From a virus: a DNA stretch of 41,005 nucleotides. Below the pieces are notes generated by a model that saw only the letters and a program-made list of their open reading frames with translations, had not been told where the DNA came from and did not search any database. The stretch covers positions 1 through 41,005 of the IMG/VR virus record IMGVR_UViG_3300008107_005534. The stretch is one strand, 5' to 3'. A program made the translations under genes and the position numbers. Below are positions 1,502 through 33,212 of the stretch, in pieces (within the stretch, counting starts at the first letter, position 1; every line of letters begins with the position of its first letter).

Positions 1502-1529
1502 TTGACATATGTGAAATATCTGATATAAT
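1502..1529 (+). promoter_or_regulatory. Sigma70-type promoter, plus strand (antisense to surrounding genes)
   Basis: TTGACA at 1502-1507 and TATAAT at 1524-1529 are both perfect consensus hexamers with a 16-base spacer. The -10 is preceded by TGA, giving an extended -10 (TGnTATAAT). It points right, away from gp13 and antisense to the 3' end of the nucleotidyltransferase-cupin gene. I see no convincing plus-strand gene downstream. The same arrangement with the same spacings recurs at 20785-20812, which argues against chance. Confidence 0.6.
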
Positions 1530-1563
1530 TAGATTTAACATCTATCAAGCCGGTAGTATATAC

Positions 1564-2310: not shown

Positions 2311-2311
2311 T

Positions 2312-3043: not shown

Positions 3044-3045
3044 CT

Positions 3046-4629
3046 TTACTCCGCGTCAAAAAAGAACATTTGCCACAAGCGAGAATTCTCGTTGTTATAT
3101 CCGAAGTATCCGGATGCTGCGTGAATCATACCTGCGTCAAATATGACGAGTCTGTTATAGACATTTCCAACTACGTCGACCGGTTCATATGGAGTTTTAT
3201 CGAGAGTAGTGTGCCCAGAGAAGGTGCTCATGATCTCTGGATGAGAATTGTGACGAATACGTGTTGCCTTATGCGCGTACATTGAAGTACCAGTCTCGAA
3301 TGGCGCGTCGGGTGTTAGGAATAACATACCAGCATATTTCTGATCGTCGCAGTGATAAACAAGAGCATCTCCTGCATAACATGTCTGGAACCTGCCATTC
3401 ATACCATGTTGTTCCCATTTTGTAATCTTCATTCCCATGATCTTTTCAAATTCTTCCTTCAGGCCTGGGAATAGAAACTGTTTAAAAGTTCTATTTCCCA
3501 TATATCCTTTTCCGAAGCCACCCTTATCGAATTCACGAGTTAGAGCATACTGTCTTACTTCATCTGGGTTATGATAGAAATCGTCTACGATCCATACTCT
3601 CTTTTTATACGGGCTTATTAGAGAAGAAGGATTTATAACAGCCCTTTCAAATACATCTAAACTATCTTCTTTGACATCTGGCAGAAAGTAGTTCTTTAAG
3701 TACTCGCTCTCAAGAATTTCTTTTGGTAGCCCACTAATAGAGTACTTCTTTAAGACGTGATTTTTATTTCCAGAAGGCGGAGTAGATCCTTCTTTCATTT
3801 CGTTCTCTGTTAAGAATGTCACGTATGTCTCGTCACGGTATGACTTTATCTCTTTAATGCTGTCTGTTTCATTTCCTCCTAACCACTCGAATGAGTCGTT
3901 ATAATGGGCCCATACTTGAGACTTCAGGGCTCGCTTTTCAGGCCCACCCATCCAAGAGAAGTGCCATCCAAGATCCTGAATAGCAGCACCGTTTTCCGTA
4001 ATATAATGAATTGGAAACGGGTTATTTACATTTGAACGTATCTGCGCTGGTGTAGCCCTTTTAAGTTGAGCTTTCGTAGCAAGAAACATTGCGCCGGACC
4101 ATTGAACCGGTGTGTTACTATCTCTGTGATAAAGACGAAGATCTGCTCTTCCTTCGAGATAAACGAGTGGAACCTTAATGATTATCTCTTGGTTTTCTCG
4201 GCAGACACGTGATAGATACGGAATTCCATCCGGCCGAATGATTTCATCAGCATCGCCGTGAATAAAGACAGTATCATCATCAAACGTGTCGAGGACTTTT
4301 AGGAGCGCGTCTTTCTGAAGGCGCTCACGAGCTCTTGCTCTTTGCGATTCAATCTTATCACGATTTCCATACGTGTTTTGAATATCAATAGGAAGGATCT
4401 CCAACTTGTCGTCGTCCGGTATATCGTGTGCTATATAGATGATCTTATTTGGATCCATCTCAAGTCTGCCTGCGATCTCAGGAAACTGTCTTTCAACTTT
4501 ATGACCAGCGTGAGTTTTATTTGACTCTGATATAACAAAATAATCTACATGATCCTTAAGTACTTCATATCTCAGCTTAAGTGTTTCTTCTCCGTATGGA
4601 GCAAAGAAAGGAAAGAAATCGACTATCAT
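3046..4629 (-). CDS. GT17-like glycosyltransferase fused to a 2-oxoglutarate/Fe(II) oxygenase-like domain (DUF6445-like)
   Basis: A 527-residue fusion. The N-terminal half starts MIVDFFPFFAPYGEETLKLR, followed by FVISESNKTHAG and HGDADEI at 124-130. This is the GT17 pattern with its DxD metal/nucleotide-sugar motif. The C-terminal part, from about residue 340, starts RVWIVDDFYHNPDEVR and carries an HxD pair (H426, D428), a distal H503 in GMIHAASG and R517, consistent with a double-stranded beta-helix oxygenase. The open frame extends to a TTG at 4647. I chose the ATG at 4629 because GAGAGG lies about 10 bases before it and the GT17 motif begins there. The reaction is unproven; it could glycosylate and hydroxylate the same glycan or protein. 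Confidence 0.72.
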   Translation of the reverse strand: MIVDFFPFFAPYGEETLKLRYEVLKDHVDYFVISESNKTHAGHKVERQFPEIAGRLEMDPNKIIYIAHDIPDDDKLEILPIDIQNTYGNRDKIESQRARARERLQKDALLKVLDTFDDDTVFIHGDADEIIRPDGIPYLSRVCRENQEIIIKVPLVYLEGRADLRLYHRDSNTPVQWSGAMFLATKAQLKRATPAQIRSNVNNPFPIHYITENGAAIQDLGWHFSWMGGPEKRALKSQVWAHYNDSFEWLGGNETDSIKEIKSYRDETYVTFLTENEMKEGSTPPSGNKNHVLKKYSISGLPKEILESEYLKNYFLPDVKEDSLDVFERAVINPSSLISPYKKRVWIVDDFYHNPDEVRQYALTREFDKGGFGKGYMGNRTFKQFLFPGLKEEFEKIMGMKITKWEQHGMNGRFQTCYAGDALVYHCDDQKYAGMLFLTPDAPFETGTSMYAHKATRIRHNSHPEIMSTFSGHTTLDKTPYEPVDVVGNVYNRLVIFDAGMIHAASGYFGYNNENSRLWQMFFFDAE

Positions 4630-4651
4630 ATTATTTGTACCTCTCAAATTA

Positions 4652-5368
4652 TTATAATGACTTGTTGCAGATGTAGATCATCCAACAGCTTCCCCAACCG
4701 AGAGGCCACTTTGAATTCAAATATGCATCGTCATACATTTTCTGTTGTGAATCTTCCTGAAGATATTTTATCTTACTTGCATCAAATTTTGATAAGAAGT
4801 TGTCTCTAAATTTTTTGAATAAAACTGGCGCATCTTCAAAGCAATCAAGATGCACTTCGACCGCAATGTGTTTAACATTATTTTTTATGAATTCAAGATT
4901 TTCTTCTGACAAGATATCATATTCGGCTCCTTCGGCATCTATCTTAAGATAGTCTATATGCGTGATATCATATTCCTTTATGATATCTTTAAACGAACGA
5001 ATAGGAACGGCCTTATCATATCCTTCGCCAAAAACATTTCTAGTATACATTGGGTCATTCCCTATAACGCAGTTAATAGGAACCAATGGAGATTCTTTTT
5101 TATTTATGATATGTGGTGACGCATTGTGTATTACTGTTTTTATGAGTTTAGAATTTCCCTCGATAGAATACACCTTTTTGGCGCCGTTGTCCAGAGCATG
5201 ACATGTGAACATTCCGTTACATGCACCTATGTCCACTACGATGTCGTTTGGTTGAACTTTATACCACCAATCGTAATCATTTCTTATAAAGAATTCGTGA
5301 TATAGCGTTGCTACAGTTTCTATAGAATCTATACCATCAAATGATATGTTGTCATTTAGACTATTCAT
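4652..5368 (-). CDS. FkbM-family SAM-dependent methyltransferase
   Basis: A 238-residue protein. VVDIGACNGMF at 44-54 is SAM motif I, VYSIEGN follows at about 66-72, and IDYLKIDAEGAEYDIL is the FkbM signature near residue 135. A methyltransferase acting on a sugar or small metabolite is likely. Its ATG overlaps the upstream stop by one base (TAATG), so the two are coupled. It is related to, but clearly distinct from, the FkbM genes at 2312 and 28454. The function within the glycan pathway is inferred from neighbours only. Confidence 0.8.
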   Translation of the reverse strand: MNSLNDNISFDGIDSIETVATLYHEFFIRNDYDWWYKVQPNDIVVDIGACNGMFTCHALDNGAKKVYSIEGNSKLIKTVIHNASPHIINKKESPLVPINCVIGNDPMYTRNVFGEGYDKAVPIRSFKDIIKEYDITHIDYLKIDAEGAEYDILSEENLEFIKNNVKHIAVEVHLDCFEDAPVLFKKFRDNFLSKFDASKIKYLQEDSQQKMYDDAYLNSKWPLGWGSCWMIYICNKSL

Positions 5369-20388: not shown

Positions 20389-20727
20389 TTATACCCTTGT
20401 GACCGTTGGCAAGATAAACATAAGACCTTCTAAAACTTTAACTCGAGTTCCGCCTTGACTCATCATGATTATATCATATGTATACTTACCAGGATCGAGA
20501 GCTTCGGATGTTTCTGGTGAAATGTATAATTCTATCATACCAGTATTCGCGCTAAGAAAACTAGCGATCTCAGCGTTTGCGGAAATTGAAGAAGAATATA
20601 ATTTCTTTATGTTACAGTAAAATGATTTATTCGAAGCGTCATACTCTTCACCGGCGGTTGTGGTGAGAAATAGGTCAATCGAATAATCGACGCCTTGGTC
20701 TACGTATAGGTTTGCTATAGTCGTCAT
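20389..20727 (-). CDS. Virion structural protein, 112 aa; translation probably gated by a hairpin
   Basis: The protein starts MTTIANLYVDQGVDYSIDLF and ends GLMFILPTVTRV. The N-terminal LYVDQGxDY, the central SFYCNIKKLYSSS and the closing YTYDIIMMSQGGTRVKVLEG pattern match a small beta-sandwich structural family of marine T4-like phages found upstream of fibre genes. It heads the structural block after the right glycan cassette. Two bases upstream of its ATG begins a perfect 15-bp hairpin (20730-20773) whose 3' arm holds the only purine-rich ribosome site (AAAAGAG) and whose loop holds a late promoter. Only transcripts starting at that promoter would leave the site free. Confidence 0.65.
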   Translation of the reverse strand: MTTIANLYVDQGVDYSIDLFLTTTAGEEYDASNKSFYCNIKKLYSSSISANAEIASFLSANTGMIELYISPETSEALDPGKYTYDIIMMSQGGTRVKVLEGLMFILPTVTRV

Positions 20728-20729
20728 TT

Positions 20730-20773
20730 GGCATACACTCTTTTTTGTTTCTATTTATAAAAGAGTGTATGCC
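20730..20773 (-). promoter_or_regulatory. RBS-sequestering hairpin with an embedded late promoter
   Basis: GGCATACACTCTTTT at 20730-20744 and its exact complement at 20759-20773 form a 15-bp stem with a 14-base loop. On the minus strand the 3' arm (AAAAGAGTGTATGCC) ends two bases before the ATG and contains the probable Shine-Dalgarno. The late promoter overlaps the 5' arm/loop junction, so a late transcript starts inside the loop and lacks the 5' arm. Read-through mRNA from the glycan cassette would fold and hide the site. This matches the arrangement known for T4 e, soc and I-TevI. Confidence 0.72.
20752..20759 (-). promoter_or_regulatory. T4-type late promoter before the 112-aa structural gene
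   Basis: The minus strand reads CTTTTATAAATAGA with an exact TATAAATA, 25 bases before the ATG at 20727. The flanks match the gp13 late promoter. It lies in the loop of the 20730-20773 hairpin. Confidence 0.8.
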
Positions 20774-20784
20774 TATTATTTTAG

Positions 20785-20812
20785 TTGACATTTTCAATAA
20801 TTCAGATATAAT
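20785..20812 (+). promoter_or_regulatory. Sigma70-type promoter, plus strand (antisense to surrounding genes)
   Basis: TTGACA at 20785-20790 and TATAAT at 20807-20812 are perfect hexamers with a 16-base spacer, as at 1502-1529. It points right into the 3' end of the HldD-like gene on the opposite strand. I see no plus-strand gene downstream. It could make an antisense RNA or a short regulatory RNA. Confidence 0.58.
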
Positions 20813-20839: not shown

Positions 20840-21640
20840 TTAGAGAAGCATATTTAATTTGTACATGTCCGCATGAGTATACTCCTGATAGTGAGATCTC
20901 AGATGATCAGGAAATGGTATTGTCTCTATACTAGCATTGTACATAAGAGCGACGTCTCTCGCAACGTCAAGAAAGCTGCGAGTAGATCCTGAGCCTAGGT
21001 TAAAGATACCACTCTCTTTCTTCTCAATCATTTTAAGATGTACGTCTACTACACGATCAACGTGTATGAAGTCTCTCTTATAGTTTTCAGAACCTTCAAA
21101 CACTCGAATGACGCCAGTCTCGCGAGCTTGTCTCGCGAATTGATTATACGGACTGGCCTGAGATCCTTTATGATCTTCGCACGGGCCGTATACATTGAAG
21201 TAACGAAATCCTTGCCATATAAATTTATGAGCTTTTGATCTCATATACTCTTCGAAGAAATACTTACTCATTGCGTATAGATTGAGAGGATACACAGTTT
21301 TGCTCTCGTCAACCGGACACTTATACTTGTTTCCGTAGACAGATGCGGACGAAGACCATTGCAAATTCACATTATGTTTCTCGCATTCTTCTGCGAGTTC
21401 GATGGACCACGCAAGGTTTAGGTCCATCACTCTTCTAGCATCCTTCTCAGTGGTTGAGCTTAGAGCTCCGAGGTGGATTACCCAGTCAAGATTGCTAAAA
21501 TCTAGATACTTTGGACGCGTGTCTGGATAGTCCTTAATATCAAACTTAACCAACTCCCAATCAGATGGTAATTTTTTGATTAGGTTCTGACCTATAAATC
21601 CGTTTGTTCCTGTAACGAGTACTTTCATGTCTTTAGCCAT
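20840..21640 (-). CDS. hldD: ADP-L-glycero-D-manno-heptose 6-epimerase-like SDR enzyme
   Basis: A 266-residue NAD(P)-dependent extended SDR. TGTNGFIG at 10-17 is the Rossmann motif, GALSSTTEKD at 58-67 is characteristic of HldD (RfaD), the active-site Y122xxxK126 is in LYAMSK, and the C-terminus has YQEYTHADM as in HldD. HldD converts ADP-D-glycero- to ADP-L-glycero-D-manno-heptose, the inner-core LPS sugar donor. Split HldE genes in the same cassette support this. The protein is shorter than bacterial HldD (about 310). The start may instead be the ATG at 21628 (MKVLVTG), which overlaps the RmlB-like stop as ATGA; 21640 has GAGAG immediately upstream. A different nucleotide sugar remains possible. 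Confidence 0.72.
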   Translation of the reverse strand: MAKDMKVLVTGTNGFIGQNLIKKLPSDWELVKFDIKDYPDTRPKYLDFSNLDWVIHLGALSSTTEKDARRVMDLNLAWSIELAEECEKHNVNLQWSSSASVYGNKYKCPVDESKTVYPLNLYAMSKYFFEEYMRSKAHKFIWQGFRYFNVYGPCEDHKGSQASPYNQFARQARETGVIRVFEGSENYKRDFIHVDRVVDVHLKMIEKKESGIFNLGSGSTRSFLDVARDVALMYNASIETIPFPDHLRSHYQEYTHADMYKLNMLL

Positions 21641-22650
21641 CTCTCATTTTCTAGAGTCCACTTCACTACTTCTGCAATTCTCTCACGAACTGATGTAGCA
21701 GGTTCCCATCCAAGATTCTTCATCTTGCTTCCATCTAGAGCATAACGAAGGTCGTGACCTGGGCGGCTCGAGTGGAAGTCAACAAACTCGTAGTTGAGTT
21801 CCTTACCCTGTGCATCGGCAATGATCTTTGCGAGTTCATAGTTATTGATCTCTTCTGCGCCGACGATGTTAAATTTAGGACACTTAGCTCCACCCCATTC
21901 TGTCTTTAAATCGAATTGGTTCTTAAGAAGGAATAGAACAGCGTCAGCAACGTCTTCTGCATGAATATAGTGACGGGATCCTGGGATCGTTTTTGTTCTA
22001 TCGCTGTGGATTGTAATCTTCTCACCATCACGAGCTCGCTTAATGCACATTGGTATGTACTTCTCTGGATGTTGTCTCTGACCGAAGACATTCATGGTAT
22101 GAGTGATATAGATCGGAAGACCGTATGTGTTCTCATACGCAACGGCAAGTTCTTCTCCGCCTGCTTTTGACGCACTATAAGGATTAGTAGAGTTATAGCG
22201 ATCGTTTTCACCATACTTAATTCCATCAGGCGCAGGACCAAAGACTTCATCCGTACTGAAGTATATAAATCTCTCAAGGTTACTCTTCTGCGATCTTGCA
22301 AACTCGAGTATATTACACGTTCCAACTACGTTATCGAGAACGAACTCCATCGGATAGTCGATTGAACGATCCACGTGCGATCCTGCCGCGAGGTGAGCGA
22401 TGTAGTTTACAGTTCCTACTTCTGAACGAACGAGCGGGTTCATATCAGCTTTAAGGTCGTGAAACACCACGCTTACTCTCTTGCGCGTTTCACTGTCGAA
22501 CTCTTGTAGTGAGTCGTGGAGGCGATTAAGATTGCCGCTGTAGTCCAATCTATCGAGAGTAACGATCTCCCAGTCTGTCTCTCTGAGCACTTTACATACT
22601 AGGTGGTGAGCAATAAATCCGGCTCCGCCAGTAATCAATATTCTTTTCAT
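21625..22650 (-). CDS. rmlB: dTDP-glucose 4,6-dehydratase-like enzyme
   Basis: A 341-residue extended SDR. ITGGAGFIAHH at 6-16 binds NAD, the T133-D134-E135 triad in YFSTDEVFG and Y158xxxK162 in NPYSASK are the RmlB active-site set, and THTMNVFGQRQHPEKYIP and SRHYIHAEDVADA follow the family. Such enzymes make dTDP-4-keto-6-deoxyglucose, the branch point to rhamnose and many deoxysugars. No RmlA, RmlC or RmlD is visible here, so either host enzymes supply and use the intermediate or the genes lie outside. Its start overlaps the cupin stop (ATGA). The length is about normal for the family. Confidence 0.85.
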   Translation of the reverse strand: MKRILITGGAGFIAHHLVCKVLRETDWEIVTLDRLDYSGNLNRLHDSLQEFDSETRKRVSVVFHDLKADMNPLVRSEVGTVNYIAHLAAGSHVDRSIDYPMEFVLDNVVGTCNILEFARSQKSNLERFIYFSTDEVFGPAPDGIKYGENDRYNSTNPYSASKAGGEELAVAYENTYGLPIYITHTMNVFGQRQHPEKYIPMCIKRARDGEKITIHSDRTKTIPGSRHYIHAEDVADAVLFLLKNQFDLKTEWGGAKCPKFNIVGAEEINNYELAKIIADAQGKELNYEFVDFHSSRPGHDLRYALDGSKMKNLGWEPATSVRERIAEVVKWTLENERWLKT

Positions 22651-23018
22651 AATGTAACTTCCTTTTGACTGTCGCCCGGCATTATTCTGTAATTATCCTC
22701 TACAGAATCCGGCGTTGAAACTTCAATAATAGTACCTTCTTGGAGACATTCTATCTGATGGGGTTGAAGCGGTGTATTTCTCCAAGTTGATCCGGTAGTA
22801 AGTACTAAAGAATGTCTCTTAGCGTTTTCTGTATCTATCCAATGAACTATAAATTCTCCAGATAGCACATACCAAGTCTCGTCTTTTTCTCTGTGAAAAT
22901 GCATTGAAAACTTTGCGCCAGCATTAAAGTTTAGAAGCTTTCCACAATACTTATCGTTAGTGGCCCAAATAAGTTCGTGGCCCCAACCCTTTTCTACAAA
23001 TCCGTTAAGTCTTGTCAT
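22647..23018 (-). CDS. Cupin (mannose-6-phosphate isomerase-type) protein
   Basis: A 123-residue single cupin. GWGHELIW opens the domain, the metal set is H40, H42, E47 and H87, and the glycine turns (FNAGAKFSMHFHREKDETWY) are typical. It resembles the stand-alone cupins and ManC C-terminal domains that act on sugar phosphates or nucleotide sugars. Being coupled to an RmlB-like gene, it may isomerise or epimerise a keto-sugar intermediate, but it lacks a clear RmlC or FdtA signature. The frame extends to 23045; I chose the ATG at 23018 because AGGAG lies 7 bases upstream and the earlier ATG falls inside the upstream gene. Confidence 0.68.
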   Translation of the reverse strand: MTRLNGFVEKGWGHELIWATNDKYCGKLLNFNAGAKFSMHFHREKDETWYVLSGEFIVHWIDTENAKRHSLVLTTGSTWRNTPLQPHQIECLQEGTIIEVSTPDSVEDNYRIMPGDSQKEVTL

Positions 23019-23022
23019 TTCA

Positions 23023-23661
23023 CTACTCCTTAATAGGATGATCATTTATAAATTGAATAGGTGTAATTAAGCCTAAGTCTAGAGTCATGTTGTTTTTAAA
23101 CTTTCCATATTCAAACCACGGATTATCTAGCTTTATTGGTGTTCCCTCAGAGTTCATCTCTATGACTCCAATTCCATAATCTATGTCGACGGTATAAGTC
23201 TTTAGGTATGTTTCAGTCCTAAACTTATAGAAAGCTTTCCATGTGGTTCCACACCACGCTCCGCCGTTTTCTTTGAAAAATTTATAGTCAGAATGCGCAT
23301 TATAAAAATTTTCTGGACCACAGTCGTGTAAAACTACAAATCCTTTACAGTGATTAATCGCATTTTGTATGTCACGATATACTTGATCTGCTAAGTGAAG
23401 GCCGTCTATAAAGATGATGTCCCACTTGTGATCGGGTTCAAACTCAGTCTTCTTATTACGCAACTTCTCAAAGAATTCGTCAGAAGTCATTTGATAGTCA
23501 ATATGAACTTCTGGTCTTGTCTTTTGCGGATCGACAGAACATTTTTTCGATGCGTTTATGAGATTAAAACAATTTTCGGGGTGCTCTACTCCAATCTCAA
23601 GATATGAACAATTATTGTCATAGTAAGCCGCGGCTAAATGATTAATCACATTATAACGCAT
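23023..23661 (-). CDS. Class I SAM methyltransferase (Methyltransf_24-like)
   Basis: A 212-residue protein. LEIGVE at 21-26 is a motif I variant, IIFIDGLHLADQVYRDI at 82-98 and VVLHDCGP at 109-116 match family-24 methyltransferases that modify sugars (and the C-terminal half of the 5368 gene, which has LLFIDTWHEYEQ and IAFHDT). The DGLH/D-T-W-H segment carries the acidic and histidine residues used for metal binding in this group. It lies between the PfkB-like kinase and the cupin, so it probably methylates a product of this cassette. There is no signal peptide, and the length is normal. Confidence 0.7.
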   Translation of the reverse strand: MRYNVINHLAAAYYDNNCSYLEIGVEHPENCFNLINASKKCSVDPQKTRPEVHIDYQMTSDEFFEKLRNKKTEFEPDHKWDIIFIDGLHLADQVYRDIQNAINHCKGFVVLHDCGPENFYNAHSDYKFFKENGGAWCGTTWKAFYKFRTETYLKTYTVDIDYGIGVIEMNSEGTPIKLDNPWFEYGKFKNNMTLDLGLITPIQFINDHPIKE

Positions 23662-23667
23662 TATATG

Positions 23668-24411
23668 TTATCCTTCTATCTCTTTTAAAGTTGGCGCATA
23701 TACACCGATCTTCTGAACAGTAACTGCCGCTGCTTTCATTGCGAATAATATTGCCGATTCCATATCGCAGTCCTTACGAAGGTATTCAAACACGAGGGCT
23801 GCAAGGAATGTGTCTCCGGCGCCGCATACATCATGTGCTTCTACTCTTGGTGAGAAGTATAATACATTATTCCATACCGCGCCATCATCGCCGCGAGTGA
23901 CGATAAGGTTTTCTGGTTTTGGCTCTGAAATTAAGTTCTTGTGTTCGTATTGGTTAATCTTAACAAAGCAGTTGCCTATATCTGCGAGGTACTTCTTTTT
24001 GGTATCTATAAAGACAGGACCTTTGAACTCTTGACGTATCCGCTTAATGTCGTCATAACTAACGAATCCCTTATCATAGTCAGAGATAACGATTGCATCG
24101 TATTCATTAAACTGAACGCCATCATATATGATAGTATCAATACCCTCTTCTTCAATCCTTTGATCTACACGAAGCAACTGTTGTTTTGATTTTACATCTA
24201 TATAACGATTCTTATTCTCAAAGAAATACGTCTGATAGTCAGGATTTACTCCAAGAGAACGAAAGTTCTCAAGAACGTTTGACATCATGCCAAGTTTCTT
24301 CTTGGTGTATACGTGATCAAAGATCGGAATAGGAGCTTCTGGACTAATACGGTTTACTTCACCGTAGTGATAGTAATCATAACAGCTGTCACCTAGTAAT
24401 AATATCTTCAT
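23668..24411 (-). CDS. PfkB-family sugar kinase, HldE N-terminal-domain-like
   Basis: A 247-residue PfkB kinase. DSCYDYYHYGEVNRISPEAP at 8-27 followed by IPI is the HldE (RfaE domain I) signature, and VCGAGDTFLAAL at 195-206 is the PfkB anion hole with D200 as the catalytic base. HldE phosphorylates D-glycero-D-manno-heptose 7-phosphate at C1. Here the nucleotidyltransferase half is a separate gene (25161-25580) two genes away. The usual GGAANVA segment reads LGMMSNVL, and the protein is about 60 residues shorter than bacterial domain I, so the substrate may have shifted. The gene overlaps its GT2-like neighbour by 23 bases. Confidence 0.72.
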   Translation of the reverse strand: MKILLLGDSCYDYYHYGEVNRISPEAPIPIFDHVYTKKKLGMMSNVLENFRSLGVNPDYQTYFFENKNRYIDVKSKQQLLRVDQRIEEEGIDTIIYDGVQFNEYDAIVISDYDKGFVSYDDIKRIRQEFKGPVFIDTKKKYLADIGNCFVKINQYEHKNLISEPKPENLIVTRGDDGAVWNNVLYFSPRVEAHDVCGAGDTFLAALVFEYLRKDCDMESAILFAMKAAAVTVQKIGVYAPTLKEIEG

Positions 24412-25192
24412 CTATAGAGTCCCATAATAATTTCCAATCAACATACGGATCACGCTCGTATTCACCTTGCATATGCAGAGCAATGCTTTCAAACGGACAT
24501 ACTGCGAGACAACCTCTTTCTACCATTATCTTATTGAGAGAGATCTTTTCAAGTTCAGGATCTCGAGGATCCAGATTTAAGAACTTCTCGAGTATATCAC
24601 TATTATTTATGAAATTTTGATGACTCGTTAAAAACGAACAAGACACGTCGTATATCTGAATCCAGTATCTCTTCTCTCCCATAAAGATCGTTCTCGGAGT
24701 AGTACTGTTTCGATATACGGCAGACCAAAGATACGGCGCATTATAGGGTGTTACGATTGGTTGCGTGTTTGTCTCAATCAGCATCCTAAAGTATGTATCA
24801 ATGACCTCGGTTATCGCAGATTTTTCAAAAAGATAATCGTCTTGAACTTGGTATACTAAATCCGTTCCATTACTCAATAGCCATTCGTAGCAAGAGCGGA
24901 TCGAATTCATTATGCCTAAGTTTTCTAGATGATACAGCTCAACCTGAACGTTTTCTTTTGAATATATTTTAACACATTCTTGAATAAAGTAAACTGTTTC
25001 TTGCGTAGAATGATCGTCGAATATTGCTATGCGATGATTAATAGATCTATCTCTTTTGGCTGCTTCGTGAACTGATTGAAAGAAAGAAGACACGCACTTT
25101 CGAATAAGCTCGTGTTTCGTGTCACAGCAGTATCTCTTGGTTACCTGGTTTGACGCGATATCACAAGTTTGCAGCGCATAGTGTACGTTCAT
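24389..25192 (-). CDS. GT2-like (GT-A fold) glycosyltransferase
   Basis: A 267-residue protein. IAIFDDHSTQET near 56-65 and LVYQVQDDYLFEKSAI near 112-125 are the two acidic motifs of GT-A family 2 enzymes, and the tail SIALHMQGEYERDPYVDW is shared with the paralogue at 27682 (SLALHMQFEQQKDPFIEW). The conserved RTCD/QTCD start is also common to both. A cytoplasmic transferase adding a sugar to a lipid, LPS-like or protein acceptor is likely. It overlaps both neighbours (25161 and 23668 genes). Donor and acceptor are unknown. Confidence 0.75.
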   Translation of the reverse strand: MNVHYALQTCDIASNQVTKRYCCDTKHELIRKCVSSFFQSVHEAAKRDRSINHRIAIFDDHSTQETVYFIQECVKIYSKENVQVELYHLENLGIMNSIRSCYEWLLSNGTDLVYQVQDDYLFEKSAITEVIDTYFRMLIETNTQPIVTPYNAPYLWSAVYRNSTTPRTIFMGEKRYWIQIYDVSCSFLTSHQNFINNSDILEKFLNLDPRDPELEKISLNKIMVERGCLAVCPFESIALHMQGEYERDPYVDWKLLWDSIDEDIITR

Positions 25193-25580
25193 CTCTTATC
25201 TTTTCTATCACTCGAGTCGAAGAGTATTCTTCTATTCTATCAAAGAATATCAGTTTCTTTGCATACTCGCTGCCTATCACTTTTTTATTTCTGTAGTCAG
25301 AACCGACAACCATATAGTCCGGTTCATACTCTCTGATAATATTTATCAGTTCTTCTTCACTGTCAAAGATAGAAATTTCGTCAACGCCTTTCACATGAAA
25401 AAGCATAGTTGCTCTCGTATCTTGGTTATTGATTGGTCGAGATGCGCCCTTTAGTTTTTTAACTCTACTATCTGAGTCTATGCCGATCTTTAGATAGTCT
25501 CCGTAGTTTGAGGCAAAAGTGATAAGCCGCATGTGACCAGGATGCAGTATATCAAAAGTTCCGTTTATGAATACTTTCAT
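25161..25580 (-). CDS. HldE C-terminal-domain-like nucleotidyltransferase (split heptose-1-phosphate adenylyltransferase)
   Basis: A 139-residue cytidylyltransferase-fold protein. NGTFDILHPGHM at 6-17 carries HxGH, KKLKGASRPINN follows, VVGSDYRNKKVIGSE and YSSTRVIEKI close it. This order matches HldE domain II (RfaE C-terminal), which joins AMP to heptose 1-phosphate. With the PfkB gene at 23668 and the HldD-like gene at 20840 it makes a nearly complete ADP-heptose branch; GmhA and GmhB are not visible. A glycerol- or other sugar-phosphate nucleotidyltransferase is the main alternative. Its start overlaps the GT-like gene stop as ATGA, and it overlaps the GT2-like gene by 32 bases. Confidence 0.75.
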   Translation of the reverse strand: MKVFINGTFDILHPGHMRLITFASNYGDYLKIGIDSDSRVKKLKGASRPINNQDTRATMLFHVKGVDEISIFDSEEELINIIREYEPDYMVVGSDYRNKKVIGSEYAKKLIFFDRIEEYSSTRVIEKIRDERTLCAANL

Positions 25581-26248
25581 TCTGATACCTTTTCATTCCA
25601 CATAGCAAGCATACCTTCACAATGCAATATATCTTTTTCTGCTATCAAGTTTTTATTTATGTTAACGAACATGGCTTCTTCTATGTTAACATTTTTTTCA
25701 AAAATCGTCTTAAGAGACTTTCTTAATAAGTCATTAGCGTCATCTAATAAAGTGTAACAAAAGGACCAAAGGCGTGTATGTAAGAAACACGCGGTTTCAT
25801 CGTGTCTCATGTTTTCTTCTCTTGACTTAAAACAGTATTTTCCTTTGAATGAGTCGTACTCTAACGGATCAAAACTTTCTGTAAGTCTGTATCTTCCGGA
25901 CACCTTGAATATTCTATTTACTTCGTTTCTAATTTCGTTACGAATAACATCAAAGGATACTAAAAGAATAAACGCTTCGCCGGCAGAACGAACTCCGTTC
26001 TTGTTGAATTCTATACATTGCTTTCTATCTCCGACGTATAGGTAATAGTCAGCCATACTCGATATTAAATTCTCTTCAGCATCCGGCAACTTAGACAAAG
26101 AGTTATCTATTAATATAACATATGAATCTTTGTCTTGTTTTCTTATACTCTTAATTGTTTCGATAGTTTCATAAAATCTAGTCTGCGGATCTATGTGGCC
26201 AATTCCTGTAACTATAGTTGAAGTAACCACATAAACGTTAATAGACAT
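25577..26248 (-). CDS. Putative GT-A type glycosyltransferase-like protein
   Basis: A 223-residue protein that I do not place in a named family. YETIETIKSIRKQDKDSYVI and LIDNS resemble the first strand-helix of GT-A transferases, and RIFKVSGRYRLTESFD resembles the K-x-x-GRY segment seen in some of these enzymes in sugar gene clusters. A clear DxD motif is not visible, so activity is uncertain. It is flanked by the 2OG-oxygenase-like gene and the nucleotidyltransferase (ATGA overlap), placing it inside the glycan operon. It could be an inactive paralogue or a distant GT family. Confidence 0.5.
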   Translation of the reverse strand: MSINVYVVTSTIVTGIGHIDPQTRFYETIETIKSIRKQDKDSYVILIDNSLSKLPDAEENLISSMADYYLYVGDRKQCIEFNKNGVRSAGEAFILLVSFDVIRNEIRNEVNRIFKVSGRYRLTESFDPLEYDSFKGKYCFKSREENMRHDETACFLHTRLWSFCYTLLDDANDLLRKSLKTIFEKNVNIEEAMFVNINKNLIAEKDILHCEGMLAMWNEKVSE

Positions 26249-26255
26249 TATGCAC

Positions 26256-26801
26256 TTACAATACTTTTAATTTGTAGTAGTGAAGTATGCCGTCTTGAAA
26301 TGAATGAAAGATCCATGGGCGATAGAATAAGACATCGTTTGGTTTCATTTTTATTGATGTCTCTACTTCCCATTCGTCATTATTAAGATAGTCGAGTTCT
26401 TTATCTTGACTCTCTTCATCTTTAATAAAATCAAGAACACTCTTATATCCATCTTTGTGTATATATGTCTTAAATTCATTTTCTTCGAGTGAAACGACGA
26501 ATCTCCAGTCGTTTAAGTCTGCAAAATCTTCGAAGTGTATTACTTCGTGTATTGTTCTACGAAGGGTTCCTGACGCTGCTCTATCTATCTCAACTATGTC
26601 GCCAACCATCTTACCGATTACAAGATCGATGTCGTTGAAGATGAGATTGAAATGCTCCATCTCTTTACCAAACTTTTTATCTACCCAATGCACATCTTGC
26701 ACAAGAGGCCGAAGTTGTTCTACTTCATCTTTCGGAAAGTAGTCTCTTGCGTGGATATAATTAATTACAGAACGATTTACAGAAAAATTTGTGTTACTCA
26801 T
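26256..26801 (-). CDS. 2-oxoglutarate/Fe(II) oxygenase-like protein
   Basis: A 181-residue protein with a likely double-stranded beta-helix. H115 and D117 in YIHKDGYK form the HxD pair, IKMKPNDVLFYRPWIFHSF carries the distal H166, and a basic YYKLKVL end could hold the 2-oxoglutarate-binding residue. The spacing fits the family. Hydroxylation of a sugar, lipid or protein side chain is plausible. Together with the oxygenase-like domain in the GT17 fusion, this is the second such domain in the window. Position inside the glycan operon, between a GT9-like gene and a GT-like gene, suggests sugar modification. Confidence 0.58.
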   Translation of the reverse strand: MSNTNFSVNRSVINYIHARDYFPKDEVEQLRPLVQDVHWVDKKFGKEMEHFNLIFNDIDLVIGKMVGDIVEIDRAASGTLRRTIHEVIHFEDFADLNDWRFVVSLEENEFKTYIHKDGYKSVLDFIKDEESQDKELDYLNNDEWEVETSIKMKPNDVLFYRPWIFHSFQDGILHYYKLKVL

Positions 26802-26812
26802 AGATTCTCCAA

Positions 26813-27685
26813 TTATTCGTCATATATGTCTTTAAGTATTACTTGGCAGGACTCGTTAATTTCGTTCGCAGAAAAATTCATGATTCCGTCATTCAATCTG
26901 TCCGTGAAGTCCGATTCTACTCCACCAAGGCGAATCGGACTGTAAACTGGATCTTGTCCCTGTTTTCTAAAGAATTTAAAATGGTCAGGATAACTTACGT
27001 TCTTTTCAAACGTACTACCCACGAAATAATCACACTCGCTTATTAGAGCCATGTACATTCTTAGTTCAGGATTAAAGTTAGTTAGATCCGCGCTAAAGTT
27101 ATCTCCAGGATGTTTGAGTTCTCTGTTACCAAAGAAGAAGATTAGACAGTCTTTATCGTTTAAAAACTTTCCGATCTTTAAGTAGTCATCGACATCTAAA
27201 CTTCTGTTTGAAATATCGTATGGTCTATTGTTTGAAATCGTCATAGTACTTCCATAAGGCTGAAATACCACTACTTTATTCTTCTTATGTATCTGCTTAA
27301 ACTCTTCAACAATTCTCTGAACAGATGTACGCTCATAGGTGCTGATGTATAGGTTAGGCTTTTCGAGATCCTTATGATCCGTCGTATTATTTATTTGACG
27401 GTCAAATGCTTCAGCTAGTGATATCTTTTGATTGTAGTAGTCGTGTATATAATAAGGTTCTGGGCACACTAGATTATAATTCTTTACGTACTCTTCAAAG
27501 ATATTCTTTTGATGAATTCCTATCGTTCTTGGTTGAAGAATAGGATGGCTCCAATATAAGTCTTGCCACCCGTGAACGATTACTCTAAAATCATTCTTTG
27601 GATTTAGTCTATGAAATTTTTCTAATGCAGGTATCGCTGCAATTACTCTTCCTGCACCGCCGTTAATAATAAATGTAGTGTTCAT
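26813..27685 (-). CDS. GT9-like (heptosyltransferase-like) GT-B glycosyltransferase
   Basis: A 290-residue protein. FIINGGAGRVIAAIPALEKF at 5-24 matches the N-terminal acceptor-side motif of ADP-heptose:LPS heptosyltransferases, and the C-terminal half has VVVFQPYGSTMT, IFFFGNRELKHPG and ISECDYFVGS, the GT-B nucleotide-side pattern. Being in the cassette with HldE and HldD parts, it probably transfers heptose. The open frame reaches 27715, but the ATG at 27685 overlaps the upstream stop as ATGA and begins exactly at the conserved motif, so I chose it. The acceptor could be LPS core or a phage product. Confidence 0.65.
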   Translation of the reverse strand: MNTTFIINGGAGRVIAAIPALEKFHRLNPKNDFRVIVHGWQDLYWSHPILQPRTIGIHQKNIFEEYVKNYNLVCPEPYYIHDYYNQKISLAEAFDRQINNTTDHKDLEKPNLYISTYERTSVQRIVEEFKQIHKKNKVVVFQPYGSTMTISNNRPYDISNRSLDVDDYLKIGKFLNDKDCLIFFFGNRELKHPGDNFSADLTNFNPELRMYMALISECDYFVGSTFEKNVSYPDHFKFFRKQGQDPVYSPIRLGGVESDFTDRLNDGIMNFSANEINESCQVILKDIYDE

Positions 27686-28464
27686 TTTGCGTAATCTTTC
27701 CACCATTGTTGCCATTCTATAAAAGGATCTTTCTGTTGCTCAAATTGCATATGTAATGCAAGACTTGGGATCGGATTGAATCTAATCGCTTTGTTGCTCT
27801 GCCATATCTTCCAGATCGTATTTGACTCTTCGTAGTGTTCCGTTCTCGGATTAAGATAGTCACCGTTATACTTAAGAGCAAGAACCTCGAAAAGTTCCCA
27901 GTTGTCACGAAACATTTTTGGAGTAGTCATCATGACGTTTGTTGTAAATATTCCAGTTCTCCAGTGACGAGCAGAGCCATGGACTATGAAGTCTGTTCTA
28001 GCAGGAGGATCGTATTCAGACGGCTCGTCGAATGGATATATCACTATGTCTTCTCGTTTCAATCTATCGCAAAACATATAAAACGAGTCAACCATTTCCT
28101 GTATTGCCGAGGGGCAGTGAAGATAGTCGTCTTCAACAGAATACACTAAGTCCGAATTGCTATCCCTACAAAGGATCCACTGCTGATGAGCAGAATGATT
28201 GTATCCACTTTGATCGAGTTGTATTAGTTTAGAATTTTCTACTTTCTGAATGATCTCTTTGATTCTTTGAACCGTATCTTCTGAAGAATGATCGTCGAGA
28301 ACCGTCAGATTAATATCCATTCCTTTAGTATTATTTATTGCGTTTACTAAAGATGATACACATCCTACAATAAGATCTGATTTTTCAATTCCGTGGTATC
28401 TAACTCGCCAATCAGTATGAACGTTTGTGACGTCGCAAGTTCGTAAAAATATATCAATTTTCAT
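27682..28464 (-). CDS. GT2-like (GT-A fold) glycosyltransferase, paralogue of the 24389 gene
   Basis: A 260-residue protein. LTVLDDHSSEDT at 53-64 and VYSVEDDYLHCPSAI at 107-121 are the GT-A motifs, and the RTCD start and SLALHMQ...DP...W end match the paralogue at 24389. The two probably add different sugars in sequence, or one modifies what the other makes. Start and stop overlap both neighbours (FkbM gene by 11 bases, GT9-like gene as ATGA). No membrane segment is visible, so it should be cytoplasmic. Confidence 0.75.
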   Translation of the reverse strand: MKIDIFLRTCDVTNVHTDWRVRYHGIEKSDLIVGCVSSLVNAINNTKGMDINLTVLDDHSSEDTVQRIKEIIQKVENSKLIQLDQSGYNHSAHQQWILCRDSNSDLVYSVEDDYLHCPSAIQEMVDSFYMFCDRLKREDIVIYPFDEPSEYDPPARTDFIVHGSARHWRTGIFTTNVMMTTPKMFRDNWELFEVLALKYNGDYLNPRTEHYEESNTIWKIWQSNKAIRFNPIPSLALHMQFEQQKDPFIEWQQWWKDYAK

Positions 28465-29080
28465 TTTTAAACATCATATCAGAACCGATTTGTTTCATTT
28501 GATTATATCCCATATCAAGCAGAAAGTTCATAATATCTTTTTTATCCCAACCATAATTTTTACCGTGATCCAGCCATTCTACTACAATTAATGGACGATG
28601 CAGTTTTATAGTGTTCTCTGCTCCGAGTAATGCATTCATTTCGTAACCTTCAACATCTAAATGTATACAATCTATGTCTGTCAATCCAAGACTGTCTATC
28701 GTTATTACAGGAATGTTTCCATCTTCCTTTACACGAAACGTACCGCAATTTTCTGGAGTGTCATTAGTGATAGAAACTTGCGATGCCTTACTACCTAGTG
28801 CTGCTCTAAACTGAAATACGTTTTCATGATCTGCAGTATTCATGCATAGACACTTGAAGTTTGTAACATCCGGTTCAAACACATAAACTGTCTCGAATGC
28901 TTCGGCAAATTTTAAAGTGTATGCTCCAACGTTTCCACCCGCGTGAATTATTGTGCGCTTATTCTTAAGAGATCCTACTATTGAATCTACGGTGTATAAT
29001 TCAACATTAGTCCATGTATAGCAAGAATCGACATCGATTTCTGGCCAATATAAACCATCTTCTCTTTTTATTATAGTCAT
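28454..29080 (-). CDS. FkbM-family SAM-dependent methyltransferase
   Basis: A 208-residue protein. IIHAGGNVGAYTLKFAEAFE at 44-63 is SAM motif I (with HAGGN instead of DIGAN), YVFEPD follows, and DCIHLDVEGYEMNALLGAE is the FkbM signature. O-methylation of a sugar is likely. The frame could begin with a TTG at 29092, but the ATG at 29080 overlaps the sulfotransferase stop as ATGA and is preferred. It is the third FkbM gene in the window and the most distant of them. Confidence 0.78.
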   Translation of the reverse strand: MTIIKREDGLYWPEIDVDSCYTWTNVELYTVDSIVGSLKNKRTIIHAGGNVGAYTLKFAEAFETVYVFEPDVTNFKCLCMNTADHENVFQFRAALGSKASQVSITNDTPENCGTFRVKEDGNIPVITIDSLGLTDIDCIHLDVEGYEMNALLGAENTIKLHRPLIVVEWLDHGKNYGWDKKDIMNFLLDMGYNQMKQIGSDMMFKNEN

Positions 29081-29853
29081 AGTTGTCGCCAAAATTCCAT
29101 ATTTGCGTGCTTATTAAGGATATCTGGTGGAAGTATAAACTTTCTTTCGCGGAATTCAACTTTCTTACGAACGTCGTGAAGTTTAATACCAATCTCTGCG
29201 TCGTACTCATCCCAAGAAGCTTCTACATTATTAAAATCATGTTCAAAATAAGGTTCTTCTATGAAGTTGTAAAGAGCTTTCATCATTTCTTTTGGCTGCT
29301 TGCACAACAAGTCGTATTCTAATAAGAACAGAAGTGGCTGATCATGACCAGTAAGAGCCTGCTTAATTCCAACGTATGGAAAACCTACAACCCCGTCTTC
29401 CTTCATAAGACTATCTACTCGTTGATACACTGAACTTCCTACGCCACCAGTCACCGTGTTTGTGGAGAATGGATTTCTGCGATGGGCAGACTCAAAGCTG
29501 TCTATTACCCAATTCAAATCCCTTACACAAACTATGTATTTTGATTTTGGATAGAGATCACGAGTAACATTTGTTAGGTATGTCCATGCTCTATTTGTAT
29601 TGAATACTACTGGCCTATCGACGTCTTCGTAGTAACCTTCGAATAAATGCCGCACAAGGTTCTTTCTGCGTTCAACAGGAACTTCAGATTTCATTCCAGG
29701 AGCGTCTTGACTATGTTCAATAACTCCCTTAACTAGACTTGCCAGTGGGTCAGTAATTGAAGCGTGAAACCTTGGGTTCTGACGAAGTATAGATGATAAC
29801 AGAGTTGAACCCGACCGAGGCAGACCTGTTATGAAGTGATATGTTTTGTTCAT
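29077..29853 (-). CDS. Sulfotransferase-family protein
   Basis: A 258-residue P-loop protein. FITGLPRSGSTLLSSIL at 7-23 is the 5'-phosphosulfate-binding loop, and SKYIVCVRDLNWVIDSF is the 3'-phosphate motif (R-D-x-x-x-x-x-x-S). Sulfotransferases move sulfate from PAPS to a hydroxyl or amine of a sugar, lipid or tyrosine. No PAPS-making genes are visible, so PAPS would come from the host. It lies between the TPR-GT9-like gene (2 bases) and the FkbM gene (ATGA overlap). It would give the glycan a negative charge. Family is clear; acceptor unknown. Confidence 0.8.
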   Translation of the reverse strand: MNKTYHFITGLPRSGSTLLSSILRQNPRFHASITDPLASLVKGVIEHSQDAPGMKSEVPVERRKNLVRHLFEGYYEDVDRPVVFNTNRAWTYLTNVTRDLYPKSKYIVCVRDLNWVIDSFESAHRRNPFSTNTVTGGVGSSVYQRVDSLMKEDGVVGFPYVGIKQALTGHDQPLLFLLEYDLLCKQPKEMMKALYNFIEEPYFEHDFNNVEASWDEYDAEIGIKLHDVRKKVEFRERKFILPPDILNKHANMEFWRQL

Positions 29854-29855
29854 AA

Positions 29856-31205
29856 TTATCCAATCAATTTCAAAAGTTGTTCATTTACGCATTGCAGAGG
29901 TTCGTCCCAGCTTCGAACTTTAGTCTGTTTGTGTACTTGAAAGTTATCTCCATACCAAGGAGACTTTGACGTCTTACTGGAAGTAGACCAAATGTAATAC
30001 TCCGCAATTGGAACTACAACAAAAGATGTTTTTCCGATAGCGCCAGCGGCATGAACCAAGCTCGTGCACGAACTTACGATACAGTCCATCTGTTCAATAA
30101 AGTCGAGTGTATCTTCCCAAGTTTCTATTCTTGACGATAGATCTATTACTCTAGGATTATTTATTGGCTGCTTGTCGATGTAATAGATCTCTGCGTTCTC
30201 TGGTAAGTATTCTAACATCTTTTCGATTGGTATCTTACGATACTCATCTTGCGAAAAGTATGGATTTCCTGAACACTTGATACCAATTTTAAACTTAGTG
30301 CTATTGATTTTATTCTTTGGATCATTCAAAGGTTTAAGATACGAACCATACCACAATTTAGATTCGTCGAGATTGAGATACCCTGGAAGACTCATCATCG
30401 GTGCCCATAGTTGTGTCCGATCAATTGAATAGTACTCAGTTATTACTTCAAACCCATTTCTACGAAACATATTCACGGTGTCTTCGCGATACTTAGACCA
30501 CGACGAGTAGAGTATTGGTCTCATTCCTAAGTCTTTAAGATATTTGAAAAAGCGAATGTTGATGATCTCGTCACCTATACCTCCCTCTCCCTCTATATAG
30601 ACAGTCTTACCTGGTTGAATTGCTCCGGTCCACCGCTTCATCTTAAGAGCATCATCAAACTTGCCACTCTTTGGCTTAAACGTCCCAAGGAACGACAAGA
30701 CTCCCTCTGCAAGTTTTCCTTCACGAAGCGTTTTACCCGACAGAGCACTTCTCATGTCCTCTCGCTTCTCTGGATGTTTTTCAAGTAAGTCTAACAGTAT
30801 CTTTTCTGACGCCGTTCTATCTCCCTTGAGTGCGATATTAAACGCTTTTTGAGTCTGAGTCTCAAAGTCATCCGGCGTGATCATCAGATTTAGATTAATA
30901 TAGAATAGAGCATCATCCGGCATATTCATTGCGTTATATGCTTTATAGAGGTTTGATCTGGCGATGTATAGTTGTTGAGGACTTTCGGCCTTCGTATATG
31001 CAGCTTCTGCACATTTCAGATACAAATCGCGGTGTTCTGCTTTTAGTGCCAGATATCCAAGAGCATCAAAGTCCCCTATACCCTCTGCTCTTTGAAAATA
31101 CATGTTAAGAATATCAAATACGATTTCGCGTTTTTCGTGAGATAGAAGATCCATTACAACGGGTTTTAGATCTTCTATCTTAAATTTATTTTCCGCCGTG
31201 TTCAT
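29856..31205 (-). CDS. TPR-domain GT9/GT41-like glycosyltransferase
   Basis: A 449-residue protein. Residues about 45-180 are helical repeats of TPR character (YLALKAEHRDLYLKCAEAAY, ALFYINLNLMITPDDFETQ, AFNIALKGDRTASEKILLDL). The C-terminal half opens with YIEGEGGIGDEIINIRFF at 203-220, the GxGxGD loop of heptosyltransferase-like GT-B enzymes, and ends with VSSCTSLVHAAGAIGKTSFV. TPR-GT proteins of this kind are common in bacterial and giant-virus sugar islands and often act on proteins or fibres. It overlaps the methyltransferase gene by 20 bases. Whether it glycosylates a protein or a lipid is open. Confidence 0.72.
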   Translation of the reverse strand: MNTAENKFKIEDLKPVVMDLLSHEKREIVFDILNMYFQRAEGIGDFDALGYLALKAEHRDLYLKCAEAAYTKAESPQQLYIARSNLYKAYNAMNMPDDALFYINLNLMITPDDFETQTQKAFNIALKGDRTASEKILLDLLEKHPEKREDMRSALSGKTLREGKLAEGVLSFLGTFKPKSGKFDDALKMKRWTGAIQPGKTVYIEGEGGIGDEIINIRFFKYLKDLGMRPILYSSWSKYREDTVNMFRRNGFEVITEYYSIDRTQLWAPMMSLPGYLNLDESKLWYGSYLKPLNDPKNKINSTKFKIGIKCSGNPYFSQDEYRKIPIEKMLEYLPENAEIYYIDKQPINNPRVIDLSSRIETWEDTLDFIEQMDCIVSSCTSLVHAAGAIGKTSFVVVPIAEYYIWSTSSKTSKSPWYGDNFQVHKQTKVRSWDEPLQCVNEQLLKLIG

Positions 31206-31746
31206 CTTTGATCACCACTAAATTCACCCAGAGTTCTTCAATAATGTTATTGTGTTCGCGAAGATACTTTTCAACAACATCTCTCGGTTCACCAACAAAC
31301 TGATCTCGGTATTGCTGAGATGGCATATAGTTGTAATCTAGGATCTCAAAGTCAACTTTAAAGTAATCACCGAGTCTGCTTGACGCAGCGCCTTGTTCCC
31401 TGCATAGTTTATTATGTTTCTTACTAAAAAGAAGAAGACCACCAACAGTAATTGGTCTACGATGTGTTGGGTCGTCGTAGAAGTAGTCGTGCCGATGATG
31501 CGGAACACGAATGTCTATCGTCGCTCCATGCTTACAGACTCGATAGATTTCTTTAAGGCAATGGAAATAACCAGGCCCAAGATGTTCGAGTATGTGATGA
31601 GCGATAACAACTTCAACTGTGCTATCTTCGAATGGCAGTGTGTCTTTTTCCAGATCTACGATATAGTCTGGATTTTCAAGCGGGTCGTAATCTAGAGTTA
31701 CAAAACCATCGAGCTTCGTTCCACCAGCGCCAAGATTAATCTTCAT
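31186..31746 (-). CDS. Methyltransferase type 11 (class I SAM), 186 aa
   Basis: NLGAGG at 4-9 is SAM motif I, VTLDYDPLENPDYIVDL gives the acidic motif, and HHILEHLGPG near 50-59 is the type-11 motif IV. Proteins of this sort, with a histidine-rich VPHHRHDYFYDDPTHRRPI segment, are common in LPS and capsule clusters. It is the first gene of the right glycan cassette, 108 bases after a late promoter, so it and the genes behind it should be expressed late. The ribosome site is AAAGGTG. Its substrate is not identifiable. Confidence 0.75.
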   Translation of the reverse strand: MKINLGAGGTKLDGFVTLDYDPLENPDYIVDLEKDTLPFEDSTVEVVIAHHILEHLGPGYFHCLKEIYRVCKHGATIDIRVPHHRHDYFYDDPTHRRPITVGGLLLFSKKHNKLCREQGAASSRLGDYFKVDFEILDYNYMPSQQYRDQFVGEPRDVVEKYLREHNNIIEELWVNLVVIKDEHGGK

Positions 31747-31853: not shown

Positions 31854-31861
31854 TATTTATA
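31854..31861 (-). promoter_or_regulatory. T4-type late promoter for the right glycan cassette
   Basis: The minus strand reads TTTGTATAAATAGAGT with an exact TATAAATA. It lies in the 131-base gap between the last RCC1 gene (stop 31878) and the methyltransferase gene (start 31746). No other promoter or clear terminator is visible in this gap. It implies that the sugar genes are late-expressed. Confidence 0.72.
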
Positions 31862-31877: not shown

Positions 31878-33212
31878 CTATACTGCTCTTACGGCTGTGC
31901 TGAACACTATGCCTGCGCTAACTTGACTCCAGCCGGTTAACCCACCAGCAACTGACACTGGAGAAGATCTAGCAACCAAAGTGCCGTGACCTAGTTGTCC
32001 AAAGGTGTTGTCACCCCAAGACCAGACAGTTCCGTTCTGTCGGACACCTATGCTGTGGGTGCAGCCTGTAGCCACCTGACACCAGTTCGTAAAGCCACCG
32101 ACGACTGACACTGGAGAAGATTTGGCAGCTACAGTGTTGTCACCGAGACGGCCGTCAGTTCCAAGACCCCAAGCCCAAGCGGTCCCGTTCTGTCGAACAC
32201 CTAGACTATGGCATCTTGCTGCGCTTACTTGACACCAGTCCGTGAACCCGCCGACGACTAACACTGGAGAAGATTTAGCAACTGTAGTGTAATCACCAAG
32301 ACGCCCGCATGCTCCATCCCCCCAAGCCCAGGCGGTGCCATTTTGGCGAACACCTAGACTGTGCACCGACGCACTTACTTGGCACCAGTCTGTAAAGCCG
32401 CCAACAACCGATACTGGTGATGATTTAGTCGCTGTCGTGTTGTCGCCAAGTTGTCCACCGCCAGTATTACATCCCCAACCCCATGCAGTTCCATTAGTAC
32501 GAACACCTAGACTGTGAGCGTTCCCAGCGCTCACTTGACACCAGTCTGTAAAGCCACCTACGACTGACACAGGAGAAGATTTACCACCACCGGTGTTATC
32601 ACCAATATTGCCAAAAGTGTTTGCGCCCCAACCCCATGCAGTTCCATTAGTACGAATACCCAAACTGTGAACACCACCACCGCTTACTTGACACCAGTCT
32701 GTAAAGCCACCAACGACTGACACTGGAGAAGATTTATCAACTGTTGTATTATCACCAAGTTCTCCAGAAGTACCAGCACCCCAAGCCCAAGCGATTCCAT
32801 TAGAACGTATGCCTAAGGCATGCGAGCCAGTGCCGCTTACTGCTTGCCAGTCATTAAACCCTCCAGCGACTAACACTGGAGAAGATTTAGACACAGTAGT
32901 ATTATCACCTAGGCGTCCTGAAGTAGGAAACCCCCACGCGTAAATTAAATTCGTATTAAAATCGCTTCTTAACTGACGGTTATCCAATCCGCTCCAGCAC
33001 CCGACTTGCGCAATTACTGGAACACCCAAACTTTCAACGTAAAATATAGTTCCTGGTATAATAGTATTACCGCTTAAGTCCGGAAGATCGTCTACGGTCG
33101 CAACAGAAATACTTCTATTCGTAGTATCAACGTATGTTTGTGCTGCTAGCTTTAAAAAGCATCCGACAGAATTACTAGAAGTAAAGTTGTTTATGTCATC
33201 TTGCGTAGCCAT
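31878..33212 (-). CDS. RCC1-type seven-bladed propeller fibre/adhesin (copy 1 of 6)
   Basis: A 444-residue protein. The first ~88 residues are a fibre N-terminal domain (ATVDDLPDLSGN, IIPGTIFYVE). It is followed by seven blades of about 50 residues with the RCC1 pattern: [AF]-W-x-WG-x(4)-G-x-LGD-x-T-x(3)-KSSPVxVxGGFxDWxxVSxGxxHSLGxRxNG. Seven is the blade number of a closed RCC1 propeller. Differences between blades fall mostly after the WG pair, after the LGD and around VSAG. It lies upstream of the right glycan cassette and 1 base after the next copy. It is most likely a virion receptor-binding propeller; a RanGEF role is not plausible in a phage. The sixth blade has VATG in place of VSAG. 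Confidence 0.78.
   Translation of the reverse strand: MATQDDINNFTSSNSVGCFLKLAAQTYVDTTNRSISVATVDDLPDLSGNTIIPGTIFYVESLGVPVIAQVGCWSGLDNRQLRSDFNTNLIYAWGFPTSGRLGDNTTVSKSSPVLVAGGFNDWQAVSGTGSHALGIRSNGIAWAWGAGTSGELGDNTTVDKSSPVSVVGGFTDWCQVSGGGVHSLGIRTNGTAWGWGANTFGNIGDNTGGGKSSPVSVVGGFTDWCQVSAGNAHSLGVRTNGTAWGWGCNTGGGQLGDNTTATKSSPVSVVGGFTDWCQVSASVHSLGVRQNGTAWAWGDGACGRLGDYTTVAKSSPVLVVGGFTDWCQVSAARCHSLGVRQNGTAWAWGLGTDGRLGDNTVAAKSSPVSVVGGFTNWCQVATGCTHSIGVRQNGTVWSWGDNTFGQLGHGTLVARSSPVSVAGGLTGWSQVSAGIVFSTAVRAV

Follow-up and report, generated by a model that had tools for sequence, protein, structure and literature searches.

Genomic context of the putatively gated gene

The window, by which we mean the whole 41,005-base stretch of viral DNA analysed here, belongs to a T4-like phage of the Kyanoviridae type. 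All of its family-assigned genes lie on the minus strand, and genes for tail, neck and virion proteins are mixed with sugar and methyl-transfer genes. Among the tail and neck genes at 1564-5368 and 20840-31746 (-) are sugar, heptose-adenylyltransferase, cysteine dioxygenase and methyltransferase-like genes. A gene at 31878-33212 (-) encodes a 444-residue RCC1-repeat protein (PF25390, E 7.5e-75), which is surprising for a structural region of a phage.

The gene of interest encodes a 112-residue protein of tail or fibre assembly (Table 1). Its cyanophage/Kyanoviridae orthologues are often annotated as 'L-shaped tail fiber protein assembly' (T4-GC 211), and in Kyanoviridae they are usually placed between a small ORF and more tail genes. 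In cyanophages, the gene comes directly after structural genes, whereas in the window a metabolic cassette adjoins it instead. The original prediction had named a sugar cassette as the upstream neighbour, which agrees with the two nucleotide-sugar epimerases that we find directly before the gene.

Table 1. Features at and upstream of the hairpin, in window coordinates.
Feature	Position	Strand	Basis or remark
Gated gene, 112-aa tail/fibre-assembly protein (phrog_1084/phrog_3304)	20389..20727	-	family matches, orthologues
Whole hairpin	20773..20730	-	15-bp perfect stem and 14-nt loop
Hairpin 5' arm, GGCATACACTCTTTT	20759..20773	-	sequence, stem search, fold
Hairpin 14-nt loop, ATAAATAGAAACAA	20745..20758	-	sequence, fold
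Hairpin 3' arm, AAAAGAGTGTATGCC	20730..20744	-	sequence, fold
T4-type late promoter TATAAATA, exact consensus	20752..20759	-	motif search
Predicted late +1	20746	-	T4 promoter convention and sequence, TATAAATA at -13 to -6
Perfect sigma-70 promoter, TTGACA-16-TATAAT	20785..20812	+	points away from the gated gene and is antisense to it; 11 bp behind the hairpin
Cassette: two nucleotide-sugar epimerases and a cysteine dioxygenase-like protein	20840..23045	-	directly upstream of the gated gene
Next exact late promoter upstream	31854..31861	-	motif search; likely read-through source

Architecture of the hairpin

Read on the minus strand, the element consists of GGCATACACTCTTTT / ATAAATAGAAACAA / AAAAGAGTGTATGCC / AA / ATG, with the ATG at 20727-20725. 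All 15 pairs of the stem are Watson-Crick, and the stem stops two bases short of the ATG at 20727, as had been proposed; judged by the orthologues, this ATG is the true start. The late promoter matches the consensus exactly and straddles the junction of 5' arm and loop, again in agreement with the proposal: the first T of TATAAATA closes the arm, and the loop contains the rest of the motif together with the predicted start point. The purine-rich ribosome site expected in the 3' arm is the stretch AAAAGAG (20744-20738), which forms the first 7 bases of that arm, although as a Shine-Dalgarno sequence it is weak and about 10 nt from the ATG. As the T4 late promoter consensus begins at -13 (PMC2988020), we place the +1 of the window at 20746, within the loop and 2 bases ahead of the 3' arm. 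The predicted late leader is 19 nt long and, since it starts in the loop, the predicted late RNA would lack the 5' arm.

The hairpin is the longest perfect stem of the window (loops of 3-30), the runner-up being 12 bp, and none of 6 first-order shuffles contained a stem of at least 11 bp. A simple composition model gives an expectation of about 0.0014 such stems per 41 kb, and of about 2e-6 for stems that enclose an exact TATAAATA site, of which there are four. The 15-bp hairpin is not a chance feature. Folded alone, the 47-nt element has an energy of -22.3 kcal/mol (z -9.6). Each of the four exact copies of TATAAATA in the window has the orientation of the coding strand, and those at 1476, 20759 and 31861 lie outside genes, 32, 32 and 115 bases ahead of an ATG, respectively; when one mismatch is allowed, the motif is not over-represented in the window. 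A gp55 homologue in the 218-kb relative (50% identity, E 5e-46), where gp45 is also found, makes a late promoter credible for the group. The near-identical 76-kb contig also carries gp45, and no gp55 was seen among the near-identical contigs, which are fragments.

Other structure searches gave no Rfam match, no tRNA or tmRNA and, ahead of the hairpin in the window, no third arm for pairing. An intrinsic terminator on the coding strand was considered and rejected, because AAAUGACG, and no U tract, comes after the 3' arm. The hairpin is absent from the output of the terminator scan, which accepts loops of at most 8 nt, compared with 14 nt here.

Predicted folding of the two transcripts

We define the gate as the extra cost of opening the region from -16 to the AUG in the read-through RNA, compared with the late RNA. 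The predicted opening cost is 20.2 kcal/mol for the read-through RNA, in line with the proposal that this RNA folds and closes the site, and 1.6 kcal/mol for the late RNA with its predicted +1 at 20746, in line with a site that is open when transcription starts in the loop. Folding of the two leaders thus gives a closed and an open form separated by a gate of 18.6 kcal/mol, against 3.1 +/- 2.2 kcal/mol when the upstream part is shuffled (none of 200 shuffles reached the window value). In a 260-nt read-through RNA that includes 200 nt of upstream sequence, the 3' arm is almost wholly paired, with a probability of about 0.97 or more; the stem does not extend to the AUG. The mean unpaired probability of the region from the Shine-Dalgarno to the AUG is 0.77 in the late RNA compared to 0.26 in the read-through RNA.

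Across three related contigs, no other late promoter with an ATG close by has so large a gate (next 8.1); this comparison took in near-identical contigs and the 218-kb relative. The window gate is also the largest among 46 orthologous leaders (next 10.0). With the same script, T4 gene e gave 12.1 and 15.0 kcal/mol, one value for each of its two late promoters and both below the window value, and T4 soc gave 4.6 kcal/mol.

Comparison with known T4 hairpins

Hairpins of this kind control several T4 genes, including e, soc, 49, 25 and I-TevI (PMC3014915, PMC2988022). The closest counterpart in layout is gene e, in which TATAAATA is also located at the junction of 5' arm and loop, the RBS is in the 3' arm, and the late RNA lacks the 5' arm. 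The window differs from gene e in that its product belongs to tail or fibre assembly rather than lysis, it has one late promoter rather than two, its Shine-Dalgarno sequence is weaker, and no early transcript has been identified across the element. The hairpins of T4 soc, 49, 25, I-TevI/II/III and segB, and of Aeh1 mobE, follow the same principle (PMC3014915, PMC2988022), although their genes and sequences are unrelated to those of the window and the predicted gate of soc is much weaker. The tail-associated product is consistent with the earlier suggestion that a structural gene is gated here; such a target is not new, however, since soc and gene 25 are also structural. By its sequence and predicted fold, the element is a well-formed further example of the T4 device. 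A classical mechanism whose usual illustrations are lysis and homing genes is thereby extended to tail assembly, in an uncultured phage with cyanophages among its relatives.

Orthologous leaders and recurrence in environmental viruses

Ten near-identical contigs encode an identical 112-residue protein, and the leader is unchanged in all of them; being identical, these leaders add no evidence on the pairing of the arms. In the next relative (L012, 74% identity), this late promoter is retained in the form TATAAATAGAAACAAAA, as is the CTCTTTT before it. The RBS hairpin is absent there, and a terminator-like stem, GAGGGACgaataGTCCCTCTTTTT, is located just ahead of the promoter. A terminator at this position, ahead of the promoter that the two orthologues share, is another way to exclude read-through.

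Among the distinct orthologous leaders, 46 of 68 have an NATAAATA, and nearly all are without a strong gate. As most orthologues have a late promoter without such a hairpin, the hairpin is not needed in general. The leader of Methylophilales phage Melnitz-1 (L327) resembles that of the window in belonging to the same gene family and in having a late promoter in the loop of a stem, TACACAaTCCTT/AAGGAgaaTGTGTA. However, this stem is weaker and interrupted, its gate of 7.2 is not significant against shuffles (p 0.065), and the proteins share only about 26% identity. General conservation of the hairpin among orthologues of the 112-residue protein was therefore rejected, with a weaker form present only in Melnitz-like leaders. 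The RBS-hairpin device is sporadic at this gene.

The layout is nevertheless found elsewhere. We scanned 2.9 million viral contigs of IMG/VR with the pattern CTCCTTT-N0-3-ATAAATA-N3-15-AAAGGAG, using as a control the same pattern with the promoter letters rearranged to ATAATAA. The pattern matched 45 stretches with 33 distinct cores, and 24 had an ATG ORF of at least 50 residues starting 3-15 nt past the arm; the corresponding control counts were 9, 9 and 3. Genes downstream of the matches include those for the gp25 wedge, gp13 neck proteins, homing endonucleases and an endolysin, where the design is either already established or would be sensible, and one for a hinge-connector tail protein. 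RBS hairpins with a late promoter inside them thus recur across environmental phages. Like the window, these leaders (L114 for gp25; L199, L201, L215 and L323 for gp13; and those of homing endonucleases) have the late promoter in the hairpin and the Shine-Dalgarno sequence in the 3' arm; most carry AAAGGAG in the arm, and their stem sequences vary from phage to phage. The gp13 stems of L199, L201, L215, L323 and the relative G004 are distinct from one another, and this speaks for repeated origin.

A probable translational filter and the likely source of read-through

We consider it probable, with good support from the sequence, that the element acts as a translational filter at the 112-residue gene, which distinguishes transcripts by their origin. 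RNA from the upstream sugar cassette would carry both arms, fold into the 15-bp hairpin and bury the Shine-Dalgarno region, such that this read-through RNA would be poorly translated for the 112-residue protein. RNA from the internal late promoter, if active, would begin in the loop without the 5' arm and would present an open site. The protein would then be made almost solely from its own gp55-type promoter; the gene would in practice be confined to late infection, and its dose would be uncoupled from that of the cassette. If read-through does occur, phages with cassettes in structural operons could in this way keep downstream structural genes on their own schedule.

The next recognised promoter upstream on the coding strand is the late one at 31861, and the terminator scan detected no good terminator on the coding strand between this promoter and 20773. 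On the coding strand upstream of the element, TTGACA/TATAAT with 0-1 mismatch occurs neither in the window nor in the near-identical 76-kb contig, and weaker early-promoter matches are about as numerous as expected by chance (35 found, 36.6 expected). Since no early promoter was found and a late promoter is located upstream, the element may filter by origin and not by time. The original prediction of a switch that blocks early translation is not upheld by this result, as the best candidate source of read-through is itself late.

The filter could take either of two narrower forms. In the first, which we regard as quite possible though still short of probable, the gene's own transcript and the upstream transcript are both late, and the hairpin only uncouples dose from the inserted cassette. 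This form is favored by the course of the coding strand from 31861 to the gene, with a late promoter and then no good terminator, by the terminator that takes the place of the hairpin at the same promoter in L012, and by the presence of the cassette at a position where cyanophages have structural genes directly before the gene. However, cyanophages lack MotA, and their early and late promoters often overlap or pair (PMC2984593), so that an early promoter may have been overlooked here and weak early promoters in particular could escape notice.

The second form is a strict timing switch of the kind that controls T4 e and I-TevI, by which early or middle read-through RNA across the sugar cassette would be silenced to prevent premature synthesis. 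Its layout and strength fit T4 gene e, and the published logic concerns late genes on long early or middle transcripts (PMC2988022, PMC3014915). Nevertheless, with the nearest recognised upstream promoter being late, no early promoter with 0-1 mismatch upstream in the window or the 76-kb contig, and weaker ones at chance level, we judge a strict timing switch to be rather unlikely.

The perfect sigma-70 promoter behind the hairpin raises a different explanation. A second perfect TTGACA-16-TATAAT is found at 1502-1529 (+) of the window, behind the gp13 late promoter, and points away from it, antisense to the operon. The relative G004 has the same sigma-70 promoter with a conserved downstream block (G004:160004 (-), locus L061), which makes antisense RNAs plausible. 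The element could accordingly be a PeSL-like module, whose plus-strand stem-loop ends an antisense RNA or marks a recombination junction, with masking of the RBS as a by-product. The plus-strand stem-loop does have a U-rich tail followed at once by the promoter at 20785, similar promoters recur at 1502 and 160004, and PeSLs have been described for T4-like phages (work cited in PMC4503421). PeSL cassettes and the window have in common that a stem-loop and an early promoter adjoin each other where modules meet; in the window, by contrast, the early promoter faces away from the gene and the stem contains a late promoter and the RBS. Additionally, no plus-strand gene of at least 100 residues lies downstream of 20785 in the window or near the promoter at 1502, the promoters at 1502 and 160004 are without a perfect stem, and the module would leave unexplained why the 3' arm ends exactly at the RBS and ATG. 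Thus, we find a PeSL-like origin improbable.

It is more improbable still that the hairpin, as a stable stem between two units, protects the 3' end of the cassette mRNA or is cut by an RNase that sets the 5' end of the tail-gene mRNA, because the stem is not followed by a coding-strand U tract at which the RNA could end by the stem itself, and TATAAATA at the loop edge would be unexplained. A DNA palindrome bound by a repressor, for which the I-TevI operator that overlaps a late promoter offers a precedent (PMC2988022), is hardly credible here, since 15-bp arms that are 14 bp apart are unlike the usual dimer site and the contig has no second copy of the hairpin.

Late promoters as possible module borders

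Beyond the translational filter at the 112-residue gene, the gp13 leaders offer a further view of late promoters. In the relative G004, the gp13 leader contains a 16-bp RBS hairpin around TATAAATA, and the 5' arm of this hairpin can also pair upstream, in a terminator-like stem (AAAGTAAGGC/GCCTTACTTT). In this three-arm leader (L061:6860-6930, about 165260-165330), GCCTTACTTTTT has two possible partners: pairing upstream would give a terminator-like stem, and pairing downstream would lock the RBS around TATAAATA. The gp13 leader of the window, 1439-1560 (-), is chimeric: the part up to TATAAATA matches G004 near 160,030, before another gene. Its hairpin is broken, and the leader resembles a recombination joint at a late promoter.

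The chimeric gp13 leader, together with the exchange of terminator and hairpin at the 112-residue gene, suggests from two genomes that late promoters may be module borders at which read-through guards are swapped. In a broader and more tentative version, which we think is somewhat unlikely to hold as stated, the late genes of the group would be guarded by interchangeable devices at the promoter edge, exchanged when cassettes recombine at the promoter. The guards would be of three types. A terminator could have its T tract run on into TATAAATA, an RBS hairpin could enclose TATAAATA, or the two could occur together with one arm in common.

Terminator-like stems with a T-rich tail running into TATAAATA are found at G004:44949, G004:30305 and G004:144381, a repeated fusion of terminator and late promoter. 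A start-codon hairpin, CAGTTTCATAT/ATATGAAACTG, is also seen at the gene for a gp21-type head maturation protease, with its 5' arm upstream of the late promoter and a gate of 8.1. It is kept in both phages, at L045:12520-12590 of G001 (about 52120-52190) and at about 177800-177870 of G004.
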